Assembly (NCBI GenBank): GCA_030526505.1
Contig: JAUNCR010000006.1
Coordinates: forward strand, 1-47,011
DNA length: 47,011 nucleotides
Origin: Spirochaetales bacterium
Lineage (GTDB): Bacteria > Spirochaetota > Spirochaetia > Treponematales > Treponemataceae
Direction: 5' to 3'
Of this stretch, positions 23,616 through 33,076 are shown piece after piece (the stretch's first letter is position 1; each line of letters starts with the position of its first letter). The position numbers and the translations under genes are program-made. The notes below the pieces were generated by a model. It worked only from the letters and a program-made list of their open reading frames with translations, was not told the DNA's origin and did no database searches.

Positions 23616-24713
23616 CTACAGATTGTCAAAAAAACCTTTTACCTTCAACAATTCTGCGTTGAGGATACCACCCATTGCAGCACCGCGCTTTGTGTTGTGG
23701 CTGAGTGCTACGAACTTGATGTCGAATACATTACATGGGCGAAGGCGTCCAACTACACATGCCATACCCTTTCCTGTTTCGCGGTCGCGGCGTGGCTGTG
23801 GGCGGTTTTCTTCTTCACGGTAAACGATTGGCTGTTCTGGTGAAGATGGAAGGTTAAGTTCCTGTGGAACAGACTTGTATGCTGCCCAGATCTTCTTGAT
23901 TTCTTCCATGCTTGGCTTCTTGTCACCAAACTCAAGGGAAACACATGCTGTGTGTCCGTCGATTACAGGAACGCGTGTACATGTTGAAGAAACAACTGGA
24001 AGAGCTGCGTTTTCAATCTTTCCGTCCTTTACAGTTCCGAGGATCTTGAGGCATTCTTTTTCTGTCTTTTCTTCCTCACCGCCGATGAATGGAACGATGT
24101 TGTCGATCATGTCAAATGAAGGAACACCAGGATATCCTGCACCAGAAGTTGCCTGAAGAGTTGTAACAACCATCTTCTTAACTTCGTATCCAGCCTGAAT
24201 GAGGGCGTGAATTGGCATCATGTATGTCTGGAGGGAACAGTTAGGCTTAACTGCGATGAATCCCTTGTCCCAACCGTGATGCTTCTTCTGGTCTGCGATT
24301 ACATCAAGGTGTGCGTGATTGATTTCTGGAACGAGCATTGGAACATCTTCTGTCCAGCGGTTTGCCGAAGCATTTGAAACTACAGGAATTCCTTCTGCAG
24401 CATATGCTTCTTCAAGGTTCTTGATGTCTTCCTTCTTTGGAAGTTCAAGGGCGCTGAATACAAACTTACACTTTCCGATTGCTGCCTTAGCATCGTTTGC
24501 ATCCTGGATAACAAGGTTTGCAACATCTGCAGGAATGTCTTCACCGATGAGCCACTTGGAAGCAACAACATCCTTGTAAACCTGTCCTGCACTTCTTGGA
24601 GAAGCTGCAACATATGTTACCTTGAAAAATGGATGATTTTCCAAGAGCTTGATATAACGCTGGCCAACCATACCTGTTGCGCCCAAAACACCTACTGAAA
24701 TCTTATCTGCCAT
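23616..24713 (-). CDS. asd: Aspartate-semialdehyde dehydrogenase
   Basis: 365 residues. The NADP-binding start is VGVLGATGMVGQRY (8-20), the catalytic Cys is C159 in VKPNCSLQTY, and the substrate-binding ATSGAGYPG and HTACVSLE blocks follow. The length and insertion pattern fit the archaeal/fungal-type Asd branch rather than the E. coli branch. AAGGA is present 8 nt before ATG 24713. It reduces aspartyl phosphate to aspartate semialdehyde, the substrate of DapA just upstream in the same operon. Together they feed lysine and the wall diamino acid. The REP-like copy 3 lies between the two genes. Confidence 0.93.
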   Translation of the reverse strand: MADKISVGVLGATGMVGQRYIKLLENHPFFKVTYVAASPRSAGQVYKDVVASKWLIGEDIPADVANLVIQDANDAKAAIGKCKFVFSALELPKKEDIKNLEEAYAAEGIPVVSNASANRWTEDVPMLVPEINHAHLDVIADQKKHHGWDKGFIAVKPNCSLQTYMMPIHALIQAGYEVKKMVVTTLQATSGAGYPGVPSFDMIDNIVPFIGGEEEKTEKECLKILGTVKDGKIENAALPVVSSTCTRVPVIDGHTACVSLEFGDKKPSMEEIKKIWAAYKSVPQELNLPSSPEQPIVYREEENRPQPRRDRETGKGMACVVGRLRPCNVFDIKFVALSHNTKRGAAMGGILNAELLKVKGFFDNL

Positions 24714-24784: not shown

Positions 24785-25690
24785 TTACAAGCCGCACTTT
24801 GCAAGAGCGTCTTCAATAACTTTCTTTGCGCTGTCTGTAACTTCAACAAGTGGAAGTCTAACTGCACCGGCAGGCATCTTCTTGTAGTTCATTGCATACT
24901 TGATGCTTGTTGGGTTTCCGTCTACGAAAGCTGCCTTGAAGAATGGCTGGAGTCTGTAGTGGATCTTGCGTGCTTCCGCAAAGTTTCCATCGAGACAGTA
25001 GTGAGCCATCTGTGTAACCAAAGCTGGAGCAAGGTTTGTAACAACAGAAATGATTCCGTCTCCGCCTGCTGCCATCAATGGGAGTGTAAGTCCGTCATCA
25101 CCGCTCATTACGCTGAATTCAGGATTTGCAAGCTTGATCTTTTCGATAACTTCCATCATCTGGTTGATGTTACCAGAAGCTTCCTTTACACCAACGATGT
25201 TAGGGAGCTTTGCGATGCGTTCGAGAGTTGCAGTAGGGATGTTCTTTCCTGTACGACCTGCAATGTTGTATACAACGATTGGAATGCCAACCTTAGAAAC
25301 TGCTTCGTAGTGGCGGAAGATACCTTCGTCACTTGGCTTGTTGTAATATGGAGTAACAACGAGGGCGTAATCAGCACCCTTTGCCTTTGCGCGTTCAACA
25401 TAGCGAACAGCATCGAGTGTGCAGTTGCTTCCGGCTCCTACCATTACCTTAACGTCTTTGCCGTTCTTTGAGTTGAATTCTTTTACCTGCTTTATTGCGA
25501 TGTCGATAATCTTGTCTTCTTCATCTTCTGTGAGGGTTGGAGTTTCACCTGTAGTTCCTAAAGGCAAAAGTCCGTCAATTCCCTGATCCAACTGAAACTG
25601 AACATTCTTGGCAAATCCGTCGTAATCAACAGATCCGTCAGCGTTCATCGGCGTAATCATTGCTGTGTAAGCACCGTGAATTGCTGCCAT
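24785..25690 (-). CDS. dapA: 4-hydroxy-tetrahydrodipicolinate synthase
   Basis: 301 residues, a (beta/alpha)8 lyase. The substrate loop is LGTTGETPTL (44-53), Y141 is in YNIAGRTG and the Schiff-base K169 is in VGVKEASGN. AGGAG is placed 7 nt before ATG 25690. It condenses pyruvate with aspartate semialdehyde, the first step towards diaminopimelate and lysine. It is first in the dapA-asd operon, with its own promoter at 25725-25753. No lysine riboswitch was recognised upstream. Confidence 0.95.
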   Translation of the reverse strand: MAAIHGAYTAMITPMNADGSVDYDGFAKNVQFQLDQGIDGLLPLGTTGETPTLTEDEEDKIIDIAIKQVKEFNSKNGKDVKVMVGAGSNCTLDAVRYVERAKAKGADYALVVTPYYNKPSDEGIFRHYEAVSKVGIPIVVYNIAGRTGKNIPTATLERIAKLPNIVGVKEASGNINQMMEVIEKIKLANPEFSVMSGDDGLTLPLMAAGGDGIISVVTNLAPALVTQMAHYCLDGNFAEARKIHYRLQPFFKAAFVDGNPTSIKYAMNYKKMPAGAVRLPLVEVTDSAKKVIEDALAKCGL

Positions 25691-25792: not shown

Positions 25793-25827
25793 AAAAAAAA
25801 AGAACCGGCATCGCCAGTTCTTTTTTT
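25793..25827 (-). terminator. Orphan terminator upstream of the dapA promoter
   Basis: GAACCGGC (25802-25809) pairs with GCCAGTTC (25813-25820), flanked by A9 and T7. The single mismatch is a G-U pair only in minus-strand RNA, pointing to a leftward transcript. No leftward gene is visible between this site and 26040. The rest of 25691-26040 holds the dapA promoter, two dyads (25959-25998) and the 26041 promoter. Confidence 0.6.
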
Positions 25828-25958
25828 GGAGGTCTTTGACACATTTTTACATGCATTTTTAAATAATTTTTACATTTTTTTTAAATATTTATTCCGTCTC
25901 TTTCAACCTTATGGCTGAGATAATACATTCACCAATTTACGCCCGCAACTTTCATAAT

Positions 25959-25998
25959 ATACCATAAATTAGGTATTTTTATACCATGATATGGGTAT
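25959..25998 (+). promoter_or_regulatory. Two tandem dyads upstream of the 7TM-LuxR gene
   Basis: ATACC-N8-GGTAT occurs at 25959-25976 and 25981-25998. The centres are 22 bp apart (two helical turns), ending 7 bp before the -35 at 26006. They are good candidates for binding by the LuxR-type HTH encoded just downstream. Confidence 0.55.
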
Positions 25999-26005
25999 TT
26001 TTTCA

Positions 26006-26033
26006 TTGATTTTAAAATAACTTTGGTTATAAT
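26006..26033 (+). promoter_or_regulatory. Promoter of the 7TM-LuxR gene
   Basis: TTGATT (26006-26011), a 16-bp spacer and a perfect TATAAT (26028-26033). The predicted start site coincides with ATG 26041, so the mRNA is probably leaderless. Confidence 0.65.
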
Positions 26034-26040
26034 TTCACAT

Positions 26041-28338
26041 ATGCCTACAATCAGATGGATTATTATCCTTTTTCTAGCCCTATTTCCACCCATTTTTTCT
26101 TATGGGACAAGCTTTCCTTCATCTACTTCTGGCCTCATTGCAAATCCTGAGGTATCAGCCCATCCCATAATAAACTCCACGGCTAAAATTTTCCTGGATG
26201 ATTCAAACCTCAAGGAATGTGCAGACATTCCCGGCCAAGTATTCCAAAAAACAGTTTTTCCTTACTATCCGGGAACATATAACGGAACCATTTGGATTGA
26301 CATAGAGATTGAAAAATCAGACGAATTCAACAAACAGCCATTCACTCTTTTCATCGATGCCGATTTCATTGATTTTCAGGAGACCTACATTTGTTCAGAA
26401 GGATCATGGAACCTCATATCAAGCGAAACATACCTATCCGCCATTACTTCAAACCCTCTGATTCCAATAATCAGGGATTTTTATGGCAAGGACAACATCA
26501 TCCATATCAGGGTAAAGATGCGTTCATGCAGGGGAGATCCCATCAGCGTGAAAATTTATCCTAACAATGAACTTTTCAAAACCACAACAATTTCCCTTTC
26601 CTGGTTTTACCTTAGCGGAGGAATTGGTGCATGCATCTTTTTCTTTCTATTAATAGTTGGAATTCTGTTGAAAGATCCGGCATACATTCTTCTTGCACTG
26701 TCATCCCTTTTCTACATATTGAGGGCCATGCAGGTCAGGGATGTAATACCCATCATTCTATCGAACCATACGCTAAATCTGTCAAACTCGGCCAAACTGG
26801 AATATCTGATGGACTGTCTGGGCATCCTTTCAATTTCCTTTTGTGCTCATTTTTTCAGTTTTATCGACAGGATAAAAGGTTCCGTTTCAAAGCTGCTCAT
26901 TGCCATTATCGAATTGGGCCTGATAAAATTACTTTTGCTCGTAACGATTGATTCCAACCTGATACTTTTCATAAGCTCCATCATTATTTCAATACTGCAA
27001 AACGGACTCATCATCTATACCCTCATAAAAAATATCATCAACAACAATGCAAAGAACAAAATCATATTCTTGTGCTGGGAATCATTTTTTACCATAAGTA
27101 CCATACTCAGAATAGTTTTGCTGGCAAGAAATTTCGCTTTCCTTCCTCTTCCTGATTTCATTGAACCAAACGACATGATTTCATCAGCCATCGGTTTTTT
27201 CCTGCTGTATATTCCTCCACTTTACACCATTGGACGAAGATTCAACATAAGATATCAGTATGTCCAGACAGAATACCAGAATCTTGAAATCAAATTCCTT
27301 AACAGGACCAAGCTTGAAAAACTAACCGATTCCGTATCTACACCTATTGCAAACCTAGCATCCTCTGTCCTGAATTCTGCATGTATTCTTTCAAAGCTGA
27401 ACTTCTCTGCAGTAAATGCCGCCTATATTGAATTGATAAAAAGAGAATCATCAAAAATAAACGATCTTCTGGTTGCCGTAAGAATTCTTGAAGGCACAGA
27501 AGAACCCCGGAAAACACCTATTCTTTTGCTTAATTTTTTCAACAGCTGCATGATGACCATAAGAAGAGTCGCAAGCGAAAAAAACTGTAATGCTTCCCTT
27601 ACAACAGCAATAGCCAATGACACCATCATTTCAGCAGACCCAAGAATTCTTCAGCTCCTGTTCATCATTACACCAACAAGCATAATATCCCTTTCAAAAC
27701 CAAACACAAAGGTTTCCATTTACATAGAAGAAGATGACGATAATCTTTTTATCATGACCGTTGCAAACCATTTTGCTTCCGAAGAATTGGATTCTCCACA
27801 GAGCATAGCAAAAGCATTGAATGAAAATTCTTACTTCGATTTCTTAAACGAACTTTCAAAAATTTACAGGGGCACAATGGAAATTCACCCGCTAAAGGAA
27901 AGCTGCCGAATGAAGTTCAAGTTTCACTTTGACAAAATCGAAGATACGTCAGACATTAAGGTCGTTACTGACAAAACGACATTTGAAATTTCCGATAATT
28001 CCCAGCGCCTTTTTAAGGATATGGAAAAACAGAGAGACATTGACAAGCCGGCTGAAGAACCAGACATTCAGACAGAACAGATTAAAGAGGCCACAAGCCA
28101 TACGCTCCAAAGCATAGAAGAAGAAAAAGCACAACCGGCAGTCAAAGACATTTTTGACCGGTTTGATTTTTCAACAAGGGAAAAGGAAATCGCCACACTG
28201 ATAATAGAAGGAAAGAGTGACAAGGAAATCGCTTTTCAGCTGAGCATTTCCCCACAGACAGTCGCAACGCACAACAAGAAGATTTTCAAGAAAACTGGCG
28301 TTCACAGCAGAGTTGAGTTAATTAACAAAGTCAGATAA
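26041..28338 (+). CDS. 7TM-DISM receptor fused to a degenerate kinase module and LuxR-type HTH
   Basis: 765 residues from ATG 26041. The signal peptide is about 1-21 (WIIILFLALFPPIFSYG). Residues about 40-180 form an extracytoplasmic beta domain like 7TMR-DISMED2 with W/Y-rich strands (TIWIDIEIEKS). Seven hydrophobic helices lie at about 188-405. A helical stretch (about 420-485) and an ATPase-like stretch (about 500-630) resemble histidine kinase parts but lack the phospho-His and clear N/G boxes. The final 60 residues are a LuxR/GerE HTH (FSTREKEIATLIIEGKSDKEIA then SPQTVATHNKKIFKKTGV). This reads as a membrane-anchored one-component transcription factor. Ligand and targets are unknown. Tandem dyads upstream suggest autoregulation. 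Confidence 0.8.
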   Translation: MPTIRWIIILFLALFPPIFSYGTSFPSSTSGLIANPEVSAHPIINSTAKIFLDDSNLKECADIPGQVFQKTVFPYYPGTYNGTIWIDIEIEKSDEFNKQPFTLFIDADFIDFQETYICSEGSWNLISSETYLSAITSNPLIPIIRDFYGKDNIIHIRVKMRSCRGDPISVKIYPNNELFKTTTISLSWFYLSGGIGACIFFFLLIVGILLKDPAYILLALSSLFYILRAMQVRDVIPIILSNHTLNLSNSAKLEYLMDCLGILSISFCAHFFSFIDRIKGSVSKLLIAIIELGLIKLLLLVTIDSNLILFISSIIISILQNGLIIYTLIKNIINNNAKNKIIFLCWESFFTISTILRIVLLARNFAFLPLPDFIEPNDMISSAIGFFLLYIPPLYTIGRRFNIRYQYVQTEYQNLEIKFLNRTKLEKLTDSVSTPIANLASSVLNSACILSKLNFSAVNAAYIELIKRESSKINDLLVAVRILEGTEEPRKTPILLLNFFNSCMMTIRRVASEKNCNASLTTAIANDTIISADPRILQLLFIITPTSIISLSKPNTKVSIYIEEDDDNLFIMTVANHFASEELDSPQSIAKALNENSYFDFLNELSKIYRGTMEIHPLKESCRMKFKFHFDKIEDTSDIKVVTDKTTFEISDNSQRLFKDMEKQRDIDKPAEEPDIQTEQIKEATSHTLQSIEEEKAQPAVKDIFDRFDFSTREKEIATLIIEGKSDKEIAFQLSISPQTVATHNKKIFKKTGVHSRVELINKVR

Positions 28339-28370: not shown

Positions 28371-29432
28371 ATGAGCGGAAATACATTTGGAGACATTTTC
28401 AAGGTAACAACTTTTGGGGAAAGCCACGGAGCAGGACTGGGATGCATTATTGACGGTTGTCCTTCCGGCATTTCCTTTGACCAGGATTTTCTCCAGCACG
28501 AAATGGACAGAAGAAAACCAGGTGCTAAAAGTGCCGCTGTAACAAACAGAAAGGAAGCCGACCAGGCTGAAGTTTTGAGCGGAATCTTTGAAGGAAAAAC
28601 AACAGGTACTTCCATCGCAATCCTCATCAGGAATTCAAACCAACACTCATCTGACTACAACAACATCAAGGATAAATTCCGCCCAGGCCATGCGGACTAT
28701 ACCTTCTACGAAAAATATGGAATCCGCGATTACAGGGGCGGCGGCCGTTCAAGCGGCAGGGAAACCTGCGCCCGCGTTGCAGCAGGAGCCTTTGCAAAAA
28801 TGCTCCTCAAGACCATGGGCATCCAGGTAATTGCATACACAAAAAAAGCAGCTGGAATCGAAGGTACAAAAGTTGACTTTAACGAAATCGAGAAAAATCA
28901 GATAAGGGCGGCAGACAAGGATGCAGCAGTCCTCATGCAGCAAAAAATAGAAGAATACCACAAGCAGGGAAATTCCTGCGGCGGAATCGTTGAATGCGTA
29001 GTAAAGGGACTTCCAGCAGGACTTGGAGAACCTGTATTCGACAAGATGGATGCTGCCCTTGCCCATGCCATCGTTTCCATCGGCGCCGTAAAGGGAATTG
29101 AATTCGGACTCGGTTTTGATGTTGCAGACAGCAACGGCCTTGAAAACAACGACTTCATGAGAAAGGGACCTGTCTTTGAAACGAACAATGCCGGAGGAAT
29201 TCTTGGCGGCATGACCAACGGGAACGACCTTGTTTTCCGTGCAGCAGTAAAACCTGTTCCAAGCATCTACCAGCAGCAGCAGACAATCGACATCAACGGC
29301 AATGAATGCGACATGCTCATTGAAGGCCGCCATGATGTTTGCCTTTGTCCTCGCATTGTTCCTGTAATTGAAGCAATGACTGCCATTACAGTTGCAGACA
29401 TGATCCTCAGAAACAGAAGCAGCAGAGTTTAA
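28371..29432 (+). CDS. aroC: Chorismate synthase
   Basis: 353 residues. Family signatures are GESHGAGLGCIIDGCPSG near the N-terminus, the middle RPGHADYTF and GGGRSSGRETCARVAAGA, and the late GGMTNGNDLVFRAAVKP. All are in the right order and length for AroC. AGGGGT lies 6 nt before the ATG. It converts EPSP to chorismate with reduced flavin, the last common step to aromatic amino acids. It follows the 7TM-LuxR gene by 32 nt and precedes dacA by 2 nt, so it may be co-transcribed with both. Confidence 0.96.
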   Translation: MSGNTFGDIFKVTTFGESHGAGLGCIIDGCPSGISFDQDFLQHEMDRRKPGAKSAAVTNRKEADQAEVLSGIFEGKTTGTSIAILIRNSNQHSSDYNNIKDKFRPGHADYTFYEKYGIRDYRGGGRSSGRETCARVAAGAFAKMLLKTMGIQVIAYTKKAAGIEGTKVDFNEIEKNQIRAADKDAAVLMQQKIEEYHKQGNSCGGIVECVVKGLPAGLGEPVFDKMDAALAHAIVSIGAVKGIEFGLGFDVADSNGLENNDFMRKGPVFETNNAGGILGGMTNGNDLVFRAAVKPVPSIYQQQQTIDINGNECDMLIEGRHDVCLCPRIVPVIEAMTAITVADMILRNRSSRV

Positions 29433-29434
29433 TT

Positions 29435-30868
29435 ATGGAAAACTATACTCCAGACTATTTTAGCGACGACTATGAAGAACCACAGGGCAGGAAGAATCTC
29501 CGCAGCCTGCTTCTGCCCATACTTGCACTTGCATTTCTATTTCTTACAGTCTTCACCATCTGTCTTGGAGTTTCTGTTCATAGGCTGATCAACCCAAAAT
29601 CTCCTGCAGCCCTTTCCGACACTCAGAAAAGTGAACTTGACGAAGTTCTTTCCCAGAATTTTTATGAACCGATAGTAAGATCCCTGCCATATAAAACGAT
29701 TCCAGCAAACCTTACAGTCAATGCGGAAAGCGCAATACTCATCGACCAGGATACAGGAAATGTCCTATTTGAAAAAAATGCTGACATGCTTATTCCACCT
29801 GCATCAATGACCAAACTGGTTGAAATGTATGTTGTCTACGAAGCAGTAAGGAACGGAGAAGTAAGCCTTGATGATGTTGTTCCGCTTCCACCAGAGAGCT
29901 GGGCAAAAAACCTTCCTTCAGACGCCTCCATCATGTTTCTTGGAGAAGGACAGAAGGTCACTTTAAGGGAACTGCTGTTAGGTCTTGCCATCGCCAGCGG
30001 AAACGATGCTTCAATCGCAGTTGCAAATTATGTCTGCAAGGATATGGATTCCTTTGTAGAAAGAATGAACAGGGTAATAAGGGACCTTGGGCTTAAGAGA
30101 ACTCATTTTGTTGAATCAAGCGGATACAGCGAAAAAAACATTACCACGGCAAGGGAATTTGCATCTTTCTGCAGAATCTACCTTAGGGATTTCCCGGAAG
30201 CCATCGACAACTACCACAGTCAGAAAGTCCTCATGTACCCTTTGGAAAAAAACCTGCCGTTAGACCAGAAGGAAAAGGGTGATTCAGAAGCGGTAATCCA
30301 GTACAACACGAACAAGCTTCTTGGAACCCTTGACGGCTGTGACGGATTAAAAACAGGATTCATCTATGAAAGCGGATATAACCTTGCCCTTACCGCACAG
30401 AGAGGCAGAAGAAGATTCATATCAGTAACGATGAAGGGTCCGGGAACAGGAAGCGTCCAGGGAAACAAATATAGAGTCCTTGACGGAACGGAGCTTATGG
30501 AATTTGCCTTCAGCAAATTTGCATCATACATTCCGGAAGGCGAAGGCCATTCCTTTGTAGTAGGCTGTTCGGGATCTTCAGAAAAAAGCATCAGGCTTGT
30601 TCCGGCAGAAAACGAAAGTTTTTCCGTTCCCTTCATTGCAGGAACTTCACCGGAAGATGCCGCTTCAAAGATTCATGTTACGGCAAACATTCCAAACTAT
30701 CTTTACGGAAGAATTGAATGCGGACAGGAACTCGGAACAATCACCTACAGTCTGGAAGGAAAGAACCTTAGGACAATCTCACTCGTTGCAGACAGAAAAA
30801 GCCAAAGAAAGAACATCTTTGGCCGTTTATGGGGAAAAATCACATACAGGACTGCAGGATTATTTTAA
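29435..30868 (+). CDS. dacA: D-alanyl-D-alanine carboxypeptidase (PBP5/6 type)
   Basis: 477 residues. One N-terminal membrane helix at about 24-47 (LLLPILALAFLFLTVF) after a charged cytoplasmic tail acts as signal anchor. The serine peptidase S11 motifs are S124-M-T-K127, S188-G-N and K306-T-G, all intact. Residues about 370-460 form the beta-rich C-terminal domain of PBP5, and the end lacks an obvious second membrane helix. It trims the terminal D-Ala from muropeptides in the periplasm. It starts 2 nt after the aroC stop and its 3' end overlaps the convergent gene by 9 nt. Confidence 0.9.
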   Translation: MENYTPDYFSDDYEEPQGRKNLRSLLLPILALAFLFLTVFTICLGVSVHRLINPKSPAALSDTQKSELDEVLSQNFYEPIVRSLPYKTIPANLTVNAESAILIDQDTGNVLFEKNADMLIPPASMTKLVEMYVVYEAVRNGEVSLDDVVPLPPESWAKNLPSDASIMFLGEGQKVTLRELLLGLAIASGNDASIAVANYVCKDMDSFVERMNRVIRDLGLKRTHFVESSGYSEKNITTAREFASFCRIYLRDFPEAIDNYHSQKVLMYPLEKNLPLDQKEKGDSEAVIQYNTNKLLGTLDGCDGLKTGFIYESGYNLALTAQRGRRRFISVTMKGPGTGSVQGNKYRVLDGTELMEFAFSKFASYIPEGEGHSFVVGCSGSSEKSIRLVPAENESFSVPFIAGTSPEDAASKIHVTANIPNYLYGRIECGQELGTITYSLEGKNLRTISLVADRKSQRKNIFGRLWGKITYRTAGLF

Positions 30869-33076
30869 TCCGCGCACATCCGTAATTTCATAGCCGCTTT
30901 CAAGAATTGCAGCAATAAGAAGATCTAGTTTTTCATGCACATAGTCTTTTCTTGTTCCATTTGCTTTTCCAACGCATACAGGAACCACCATACCCTCTTC
31001 AAGTTCTTCTACAAGGCCATTGATGATTTCTGATGCCGACTTGTATTCTTCGCCCTTTTCATTTGACCTTTCATAGGTAGTCCTGTCGCTGAACTTTGAA
31101 AATGCAGAAACATATTCATAGCCTGCAGAATTACCTGAAGTCCTGATAAGTTCCGTGTCATGATAGTAAGGTGCATGCCACAAAAGCGAAAGTTCTTTTT
31201 TTGTCACTGCAAAGAATTCGTCTTCATTGCGGGCAAGACCACGGGTAATGAAACTTCCGTCAATTACAAAATTGTTTTCCACAAGATCGGCTGCAGTATA
31301 GAAAAGTGAACCGCAGTCATTTCCTGAATTTGCAATAAGCTTTGCCTTTTCTGGATAGCGCCTGATGAATTCACCGTTTACAAAGAAAGTTCCCTTGATT
31401 CCGTATTCAGAAAGAACCTGAAGCACCTTTCCAAGCCCCTCGGCATTTTCCATTGCATCCAGAGCAAGAGCTACCTTCTTTCCGTTTTCCGAATCCTTCA
31501 TTGCATCCGGGAATACTGAATAGGTAAAGGTTTTGCCGGAAAGGCAGCGTACGAAAATTGTATTTTCATATTTTGCATTTGTTGCTTTTCCAACATAAGC
31601 ACGATATCTTCCGTTCTTATCCCTTGCATTCAATTCTACATCTGGGATTCTGTATGGTACCCATATGTTCTTTTCTGCATCATAGCAATAGAATCCCTTT
31701 CCTTCTGAAATTTTTGTAACGATGAATCCCGCGTTCCAGTATGCCCTGTCTACGGAAGAAAGGAAAAGTATGCTGGATTCTTTAGAAACGCAATTGAAAA
31801 GGCTTACCGTATTCTTTCCGCCAACATAAAGCGCATTTCTTCCTGCCCATGCAACTGAAACTACAGTTTCCCTGTCGTAGGAGGCTGTCTCAGACATGAG
31901 TGCAAGGTCGAAGATTTTAAGTACGCCGCTGTCAGTATAGGCAATCTTCCTGCAGTCAGGAGACAGAACAGGAGCAATCGATCTGCTTGCCTTCACCAAT
32001 ACAGACATGTTGTTTTCAACGGAATACATTGTTCCGACTTTTTCAATGCTTGAGTAATTCAGGCTTTCATTCCAGAGGAGAGCCTTTCCGTCGGCTGTCC
32101 AGAACATTTCGTAGCCAAGTGATGTTCCTGCAACTTCCGTAAGGGGACTGATCAAATCTATTTTAGCATGAACATTTTTTTCTTCTGCTCCAACAGAATA
32201 GAGTGACAGAATATTTCCTCTTGAAATGACTGCCATTCTGCTTCCGGTTCCATTGCACCAGAACTTGTCTGTAAGGCAATTGAATTCTATTGGAAGGCGT
32301 GCAATGATTTTTCCGTTTCCAACAAGGGAAGAATAAAGTCCTCGTGTATAAAGTTCATTCTGATCAATGCTGTATACTACATCATCCTTAAGGTAGATGA
32401 TTTTCTTTGACTGTGTCCACTGAACGCTATCAATGGAACCTTCGCCTATTTTCCTGAAGTTTTCATTAACCTGAAGGTTTTTTACCACTGCATCAGGAGT
32501 TGCAAAATAAACTGCATTGTTGTTTTCGTAAAGGAGGGCTTTTCCGTCCGGAGCCCATTTAACTTTTACCGAAGAATAGTCCAGGTCCACATTTTCAACC
32601 AGAACCTTCTGCAAAAGAGTCTTTGAATTTACAAGGACAAGATTACCGGAAGCCTTTTTCACAGGCTCAACAGTGCAGTACCATTTTCCGTCAGAACTTG
32701 CCGCTACAGGGAAAGTACGGAGGTTCTTTCCACGGTTTCCTTCGGTAACTCTTGTTATCTTTCCTTCTTCAGTACTGTATCTTGAAAGTCCATCTCTGTT
32801 CCTAACCTGAAGAATCTTTCCTTCATCAAGAAGTTCAAGTCTTTCTGGAAAGCAGGTAAGGAGAACTGGAACTGAAGTGATTTTTTCATCGCCAAGTTTC
32901 GTGCAGTAAAGGCTCTTGTATTCAGCAACGCCGGGAACTTTCTGTTCGGCTGTAAAAAGAAGCCTGTCATCGGAGGCAACATCAATGTCATCGAGTTTCA
33001 CGCCGGCATAAACACTTGATGCCGAAACCAGGATTATTGTTCCAAGAAGATAGTTAAGCAGATTTGTTTTCTTCAT
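30860..33076 (-). CDS. Secreted beta-propeller protein with degenerate polysaccharide-deacetylase domain
   Basis: 738 residues. The signal peptide is residues 1-24 (NLLNYLLGTIILVSASSVYA). Residues about 25-500 form repeated four-strand units of WD40/TolB-like type (VKWAPDGKALLYEN, MFWTADGKALLWNE, VLSPDCRKIAYTD). From about 525 a NodB-like domain begins: VALALDAMENAEGLGKVLQ, then GIKGTFFVNGEFIRRYPEKAKLIANSG. The metal-binding motifs are not canonical: LDAM replaces FDDG, and NDCGSLFYT replaces the H-x3-H helix. It is therefore probably non-catalytic or altered, acting as a wall-binding periplasmic protein. It is followed upstream in the operon by the LysM-M23 gene. Confidence 0.7.
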   Translation of the reverse strand: MKKTNLLNYLLGTIILVSASSVYAGVKLDDIDVASDDRLLFTAEQKVPGVAEYKSLYCTKLGDEKITSVPVLLTCFPERLELLDEGKILQVRNRDGLSRYSTEEGKITRVTEGNRGKNLRTFPVAASSDGKWYCTVEPVKKASGNLVLVNSKTLLQKVLVENVDLDYSSVKVKWAPDGKALLYENNNAVYFATPDAVVKNLQVNENFRKIGEGSIDSVQWTQSKKIIYLKDDVVYSIDQNELYTRGLYSSLVGNGKIIARLPIEFNCLTDKFWCNGTGSRMAVISRGNILSLYSVGAEEKNVHAKIDLISPLTEVAGTSLGYEMFWTADGKALLWNESLNYSSIEKVGTMYSVENNMSVLVKASRSIAPVLSPDCRKIAYTDSGVLKIFDLALMSETASYDRETVVSVAWAGRNALYVGGKNTVSLFNCVSKESSILFLSSVDRAYWNAGFIVTKISEGKGFYCYDAEKNIWVPYRIPDVELNARDKNGRYRAYVGKATNAKYENTIFVRCLSGKTFTYSVFPDAMKDSENGKKVALALDAMENAEGLGKVLQVLSEYGIKGTFFVNGEFIRRYPEKAKLIANSGNDCGSLFYTAADLVENNFVIDGSFITRGLARNEDEFFAVTKKELSLLWHAPYYHDTELIRTSGNSAGYEYVSAFSKFSDRTTYERSNEKGEEYKSASEIINGLVEELEEGMVVPVCVGKANGTRKDYVHEKLDLLIAAILESGYEITDVRGLK

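Follow-up and report, generated by a model that had tools for sequence, protein, structure and literature searches.

A predicted membrane-bound, kinase-dead 7TM-DISM transcription regulator and its probable autoregulation of an aroC-dacA operon in gut Treponema

The window analysed here, a whole stretch of 47,011 nucleotides from a gut Treponema genome, encodes a protein that is quite probably a transmembrane transcription regulator (TTR) derived from a 7TM-DISM hybrid kinase, which autoregulates the regulator-aroC-dacA operon and is most likely its activator. This explanation draws on several aspects computed here, which include the architecture of the protein, the loss of catalytic residues, a single loss of the receiver, a conserved operon, and conserved phased sites that are confined to this promoter. 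From these we infer the binding, the membrane-bound action, the activation, the leaderless start and the nature of the ligand. In the proposed mechanism, a RetS-like periplasmic domain together with seven helices would sense a signal at the membrane, and the dead kinase fold would be kept as a dimerising scaffold which relays the signal without phosphotransfer. A flexible linker would let the paired HTH domains reach the DNA from a protein still embedded in the membrane, and HTH dimers may occupy two NarL-type 7-2-7 sites on one helix face, just upstream of the -35 of the regulator's own promoter. The bound dimers would then, most likely, activate the regulator-aroC-dacA operon.

Architecture of the regulator and its relatives

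The gene and the domains of its product are located as follows.

26041-28338, forward strand: regulator gene, 765 aa, stop included (open reading frame from ATG 26041 to the stop at 28338)
26044-26097, forward strand: N-terminal hydrophobic helix, a signal peptide or anchor, residues 2-19 (AlphaFold2 model)
26176-26586, forward strand: DISMED2-like periplasmic beta domain, residues 46-182 (Z 15.1 to 3jyb; orthologs match PF07696)
26563-27246, forward strand: seven transmembrane helices, residues 175-402 (AlphaFold2 model; orthologs match PF07695)
27238-27492, forward strand: DHp-like helical hairpin without the phospho-His, residues 400-484 (model, alignment and structure comparison)
27502-27939, forward strand: pseudo-CA domain of GHKL fold, lacking N and G2 boxes, residues 488-633 (alignment and structure comparison)
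27940-28167, forward strand: charged linker, mostly of low confidence, residues 634-709 (a degenerate receiver stands at the same place in most orthologs)
28168-28326, forward strand: LuxR/NarL-type HTH, residues 710-762 (PF00196, E=7.4e-16)

ATG 26041 is the most likely start, and the TTG at 26023 was set aside in its favour because most orthologs have their ATG 6-7 nt past the -10.

A first-pass annotation had read this protein as a 7TM-DISM sensor with an outer domain, a kinase-like region and a LuxR HTH in one chain. The HTH is found directly, as the C-terminus gives a GerE match with 58 bits against a Pfam cut-off of 23.5, while 7TMR-DISM, DISMED2 and HATPase have no Pfam match in the window protein alone, even at E<=10. 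Pfam thus sees only the LuxR HTH, and the 7TM-DISM claim needed relatives and structure, both of which bear it out. Among 36 aligned orthologs, 7TMR-DISM_7TM (PF07695, best 9.6e-09) and DISMED2 (PF07696) are each matched by 18, Response_reg by 24 and GerE by 33, and a HATPase family by 2-3 only (HATPase_c in 2). In the AlphaFold2 model (29 sequences, mean pLDDT 78, pTM 0.55) the N-terminal hydrophobic helix is followed by the beta domain and seven transmembrane helices, then by a helical hairpin and an alpha/beta domain, and the HTH comes last, after a poorly ordered linker; the relative placement of these domains is not claimed, as the pTM is low. Residues 46-182 of the model resemble the RetS periplasmic domain 3jyb (Z 15.1, rmsd 2.3, 129 aligned). 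The kinase-like region likewise takes a histidine-kinase fold at residues 407-633, with a DHp hairpin and a GHKL-type CA domain, and matches the solved structures of GacS, HK853, RetS and ETR1 (ETR1 CA domain: Z 17.0, 146 aligned, 2.5 A; GacS: Z 16.5, 265 aligned). The 7TM part reaches similar Z values against receptor 7TM bundles, which is weak evidence since these are helical bundles. With GerE and seven modelled transmembrane helices in one chain, the protein has the build of a TTR, and the 7TM module (orthologs and model) with its DISMED2 extracellular domain places it among the 7TMR-DISM receptors.

In 200 genomes of the genus, a profile search recovers about 25 strong full-length orthologs besides others that are more distant. 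A more distant member is also carried by T. porcinum (L157). Strong members (E <= 1e-15) in an order-wide profile search occur in this genus only (1 of 83 genera). The orthologs are typically about 930 aa long, receiver included, and are mostly 20-30% identical to the window protein; the HTH is the most conserved part, and the linker sequence is not conserved. The receiver is present in 26 members and absent from seven, namely the window protein, L004, L034, L094, L095, L100 and L107. On a quickly built tree, in which L107, L109 and L104 have long branches, these seven form one clade (SH-aLRT 99) and a single change, so that by this tree the window's clade lost its receiver once. The family would descend from a 7TM-DISM hybrid histidine kinase with LuxR output, as a part of the explanation that is considered quite probable as a whole.

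Treponema genomes also carry related proteins of other composition. Three proteins of about 470 aa (L084:1718-3133, L086:1409-2896 and L088:1469-2860) have DISMED2 and 7TM joined directly to a LuxR HTH, the kinase being absent. A paralog from another Treponema genome (L075:1814-4600) is apparently an intact 7TM-DISM hybrid kinase with a receiver and a LuxR HTH in one chain.

The L075 paralog has the 7TM ahead of the kinase motifs HELLSP, NLIDNA and GFGLGL, and a complete receiver followed by the LuxR HTH behind them; its His, both N-box Asn, the G2 glycines, and the receiver Asp/Thr/Lys are all present. Aligned to it, the window protein has Thr in the phospho-His column (a slightly shifted alignment would give Asp), Ile and Ser for the N-box Asn pair, and Asn/Asn/Tyr for the G2 glycines. 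The set of an active histidine kinase (phospho-His, N-box Asn, G1/G2) is absent from the window protein in this alignment, as had been proposed for the phospho-His and ATP boxes, and a complete kinase core, named beforehand as the finding that would count against this reading, was looked for against L075 and not found. Every aroC-linked member examined has degenerate motifs. Isolated catalytic residues survive in some of them (L004 and L035, for instance, have a His in the vicinity of the H-box), and no ortholog examined has a working set. Judged from the alignment, the regulator's kinase is dead, and residual phospho-chemistry is conceivable in those relatives which keep single catalytic residues.

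The same decay is seen in the receiver. The window protein lacks the receiver with a phospho-Asp that a hybrid two-component regulator would have. In most orthologs a receiver lies between the kinase and the HTH, with the phospho-Asp usually replaced by Asn, Glu or Ser; in L101, L108, L110 and L111 the Asp is present, but the acidic pair or the Lys is missing. The receivers of L038, L093 and L112 have the acidic pair and the Lys intact and Glu in place of the phospho-Asp, a possible built-in phosphomimic. That GacS and RetS are among the closest kinase folds could be taken to mean that the regulator still acts in phosphosignalling, as the partner or decoy of another kinase (as RetS is with GacS), its HTH being secondary. 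This is very improbable, considering that the phospho-His is not conserved, that the receiver Asp is mostly replaced or the receiver lost, and that the HTH outlasts every other part of the protein.

Paired dyads and the promoter

The features upstream of the regulator gene are as follows.

25959-25976, no strand: distal dyad ATACC-N8-GGTAT, of NarL 7-2-7 type (exact; recurs before orthologs)
25981-25998, no strand: proximal dyad ATACC-N8-GGTAT, its centre 22 bp from that of the distal dyad (exact; recurs before orthologs)
26006-26011, forward strand: -35 TTGATT (promoter read; the proximal dyad ends 7 bp before it)
26019-26028, forward strand: small palindrome AACTTTGGTT between -35 and -10 (most orthologs that carry dyads keep it, with the consensus AACYnnRGTT)
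26028-26033, forward strand: -10 TATAAT (16 bp spacer after the -35; the ATG follows after 7 nt)

Both dyads had been proposed earlier as the likely target of the regulator, and their positions, exactness and distance to the -35 hold as described. They are the only exact ATACC-N8-GGTAT matches in the 2.64 Mb genome, which is about 90% complete, and a reversed control pattern also gives 2 matches. Hence single dyads are expected about twice by chance, and it is the phased pair and its recurrence that are remarkable. The paired pattern TACC-N8-GGTA-N6-TACC-N8-GGTA occurs once in the genome at 0 mismatches, and everywhere else 3 are needed, which is the control level. The genome scan for the pair, from which a regulon was to be defined, has therefore located the pair and returned no regulon beyond the regulator's own promoter, so that the regulator looks like a single-operon autoregulator. 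A relaxed search within the window gave 27 dyads at <=2 mismatches against 9.5 expected; the weak ones were not taken as sites, as they are scattered and the exact and paired searches show no second target.

The pair travels with the gene across genomes. Upstream regions of orthologs were searched for TACC-N8-GGTA pairs with 18-36 bp between centres and <=2 mismatches in all, and 23 of 33 orthologs carry one (19 at 22 bp, 3 at 33 bp and 1 at 21 bp), spacings that amount to two or three helical turns. As the orthologs are mostly 20-30% identical, the sites outlast most of the protein sequence; owing to the relatedness of the genomes, they do not count as independent observations. Exact pairs with any gap of 6-17 were found at 15 places in 13 of 23 genomes, control patterns giving 0, and 13 of the 15 places are this promoter. 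It holds the only copy in 12 of the 13 genomes, and the two remaining places form one cluster in genome G217. Dyads were not found in the most distant aroC-linked subgroup (L071, L077, L080, L081, L083, L087 and L089), which may use other sites. Three members (L035, L097 and L098) have dyads 33 bp apart and an apparent degenerate third dyad 22 bp further on. The 7-2-7 geometry, present at the window promoter and conserved before orthologs, is that of an engineered high-affinity NarL site, TACCCCTAAAGGGGTA, which has the same TACC-N8-GGTA arrangement and is bound as a dimer by the NarL output domain (PMC4549865). The dyad pair as the predicted target of the regulator is thus strongly supported by the cross-genome comparison. 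Several LuxR-HTH proteins are encoded in Treponema genomes, and one of them, rather than the window protein, might bind the dyads; this is improbable, as a regulator shared in this way should have further targets, but the pair occurs once per genome, at this gene.

The window promoter is sigma-70-like. In most members the -10 sits 30-31 bp past the proximal dyad, and in 13 of the 18 scored the ATG follows 6-7 nt past the -10. As the -10 mostly abuts the ATG, the regulator mRNA is probably leaderless; in Leptospira, also a spirochaete, such mRNAs are common (PMC5243855). At the small palindrome, the sequence TAACYNNRGTTATAMT occurs once in its own genome, and the palindrome is possibly a second operator.

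The position of the dyads bears on the sign of the regulation. Twofold dyads would suit a dimer that the 7TM and kinase-like scaffold holds together, and two phased dyads would fit cooperative binding. Activation is suggested by their position, on one face and ahead of the -35, and the several orthologs with weak -35 hexamers keep their dyads, as expected of an activated promoter. The sign stays uncertain, as the centre of the proximal dyad lies at about -51 from the expected start, which is neither classical class I nor class II. The same protein and sites could alternatively make an autorepressor, whose bound dimers hold the operon down and release it on signal. Autoregulators are often repressors, and the conserved palindrome AACYnnRGTT adjoins the -10; however, dyads lying wholly upstream of the -35 on one face occupy the usual place of an activator, and the weak -35 hexamers do not suit repression either, which makes an autorepressor possible but rather unlikely.

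Operon context and mode of action

The genes and the hairpin around the regulator are as follows.

28371-29432, forward strand: aroC, chorismate synthase, 32 bp downstream of the regulator (no terminator-like site between)
29435-30868, forward strand: dacA-like D-Ala-D-Ala carboxypeptidase, following aroC
24785-25690, reverse strand: dapA, divergent, with its own promoter-like site at 25753-25725 (gene annotation, synteny)
23616-24713, reverse strand: gene beside dapA, presumably asd-like (the same neighbour in orthologs)
25795-25827, reverse strand: hairpin resembling a terminator, between dapA and the regulator, with U-rich runs on either side (similarly placed hairpins before the G027, G021 and G009 orthologs)

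The regulator stands upstream of aroC and dacA, as the first-pass annotation had it, and since the gap to aroC is 32 bp without a terminator-like site, the regulator, aroC and dacA are likely co-transcribed. This arrangement is widespread, and in about 33 Treponema genomes the regulator adjoins aroC-dacA and/or dapA (divergent from dapA-asd). RgsP, a 7TMR protein with DISM features, has a role in the cell-wall growth of Rhizobiales (PMC6107284), and on this account a cell-wall signal for the regulator would be a reasonable guess, no more. Further downstream, 30860-33076 encodes a long N-terminal part, with weak beta-propeller-like matches, ahead of a polysaccharide deacetylase domain.

Rfam lists no known RNA in the window at the gathering threshold, so the hairpin at 25795-25827 is not a listed riboswitch at that threshold; it may end a short unlisted transcript. 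Between the hairpin and the dyads (25840-25930), a pyrimidine stretch like TCTCTYTYCA recurs in several relatives.

The low-confidence linker (about 664-701 in the model) is of variable length, and the possibility raised earlier, that regulated proteolysis frees the HTH to act as a soluble factor, would make this long disordered segment the cleavage zone. This seems quite improbable: a freed factor would not need confinement to a single site, the orthologs do not share the linker sequence, and the dimerisation mediated by the scaffold would be lost. Action from the membrane, as preferred here, could be taken further. The regulator may be a self-tethered switch, membrane-bound, with its own promoter as its only DNA site and the dead kinase as a purely mechanical relay. 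With a probably leaderless mRNA and a nascent protein inserting at its own gene, the regulator would find its target by staying where it is made. This idea is a doubtful one, and if true, self-tethering would be a solution to the search problem that membrane-bound transcription factors face.

The locus presents an orthologous series within one genus, from kinase-dead proteins with a degenerate receiver to kinase-dead proteins that have lost it, and beside the series stand an intact hybrid-kinase paralog and kinase-less 7TM-LuxR paralogs. Living relatives thereby show a route by which a two-component sensor can decay to a switch made of one protein, and the locus raises the question of the role of a dead kinase fold kept over long evolution. 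Since the prediction gives the DNA target to the base and places it at one promoter alone, the mechanism is testable with a single reporter.

Comparison with known systems

The locus had been put forward as a poorly described system. That part stands, and no description of this regulator family was found in the literature searched, which omits most subscription journals. It is not new in kind, as the regulator, by its build, falls in the known broad class of TTRs and ChiS is a studied kinase-like example. The HTCS of Bacteroides resemble the plan of the orthologs, with sensor, kinase, receiver and HTH in one chain. HTCS keep an active kinase and receiver, with an AraC-type HTH, whereas the window regulator has lost the phosphotransfer parts. 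The Pseudomonas 7TMR-DISM hybrid kinases RetS, LadS and SagS share DISMED2, 7TM and the kinase fold with it. RetS has no HTH, whereas the window regulator has its LuxR HTH output in the same chain; RetS instead acts through another protein. That protein is GacS (PMC12148439). NarL/FixJ response regulators share the HTH type and the 7-2-7 geometry of the DNA site (PMC4549865), but they are soluble and controlled by phosphorylation, and the window regulator is predicted to be membrane-bound, with the receiver absent.

TTRs such as ToxR, CadC and TfoS, and the hybrid TTRs, are one-component regulators acting from the membrane, as is proposed for the window regulator. A survey of TTRs found Spirochaetota enriched in such regulators, proposed that membrane one-component regulators may have evolved from two-component systems, and suggested that hybrid TTRs are recent and not conserved at the genus level (PMC10269533). 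In contrast to the hybrid TTRs surveyed, the window family consists of kinase-dead orthologs in synteny across a genus. It thus fits the idea of a two-component origin and is an exception to the non-conservation at the genus level.

ChiS of Vibrio cholerae is a hybrid sensor kinase of the membrane that binds DNA (PMC10208484, PMC8092284, PMC11856585), and both ChiS and TfoS do so from the membrane (PMC11856585). Like the window regulator, ChiS joins a membrane kinase-like protein and a DNA-binding domain in one chain, and, as is proposed for the window regulator, it relays a signal from the periplasm to DNA binding. ChiS has a HAMP domain and a cryptic DNA-binding domain of a variant HTH type, and controls chb and tfoR; the window regulator has 7TM-DISM and a GerE HTH instead, lacks the kinase boxes and (in its clade) the receiver, and its own promoter is the only site found. 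By analogy, ChiS would be the closest studied mechanism for the window regulator, the likeness proposed here being one of mechanism rather than of family.
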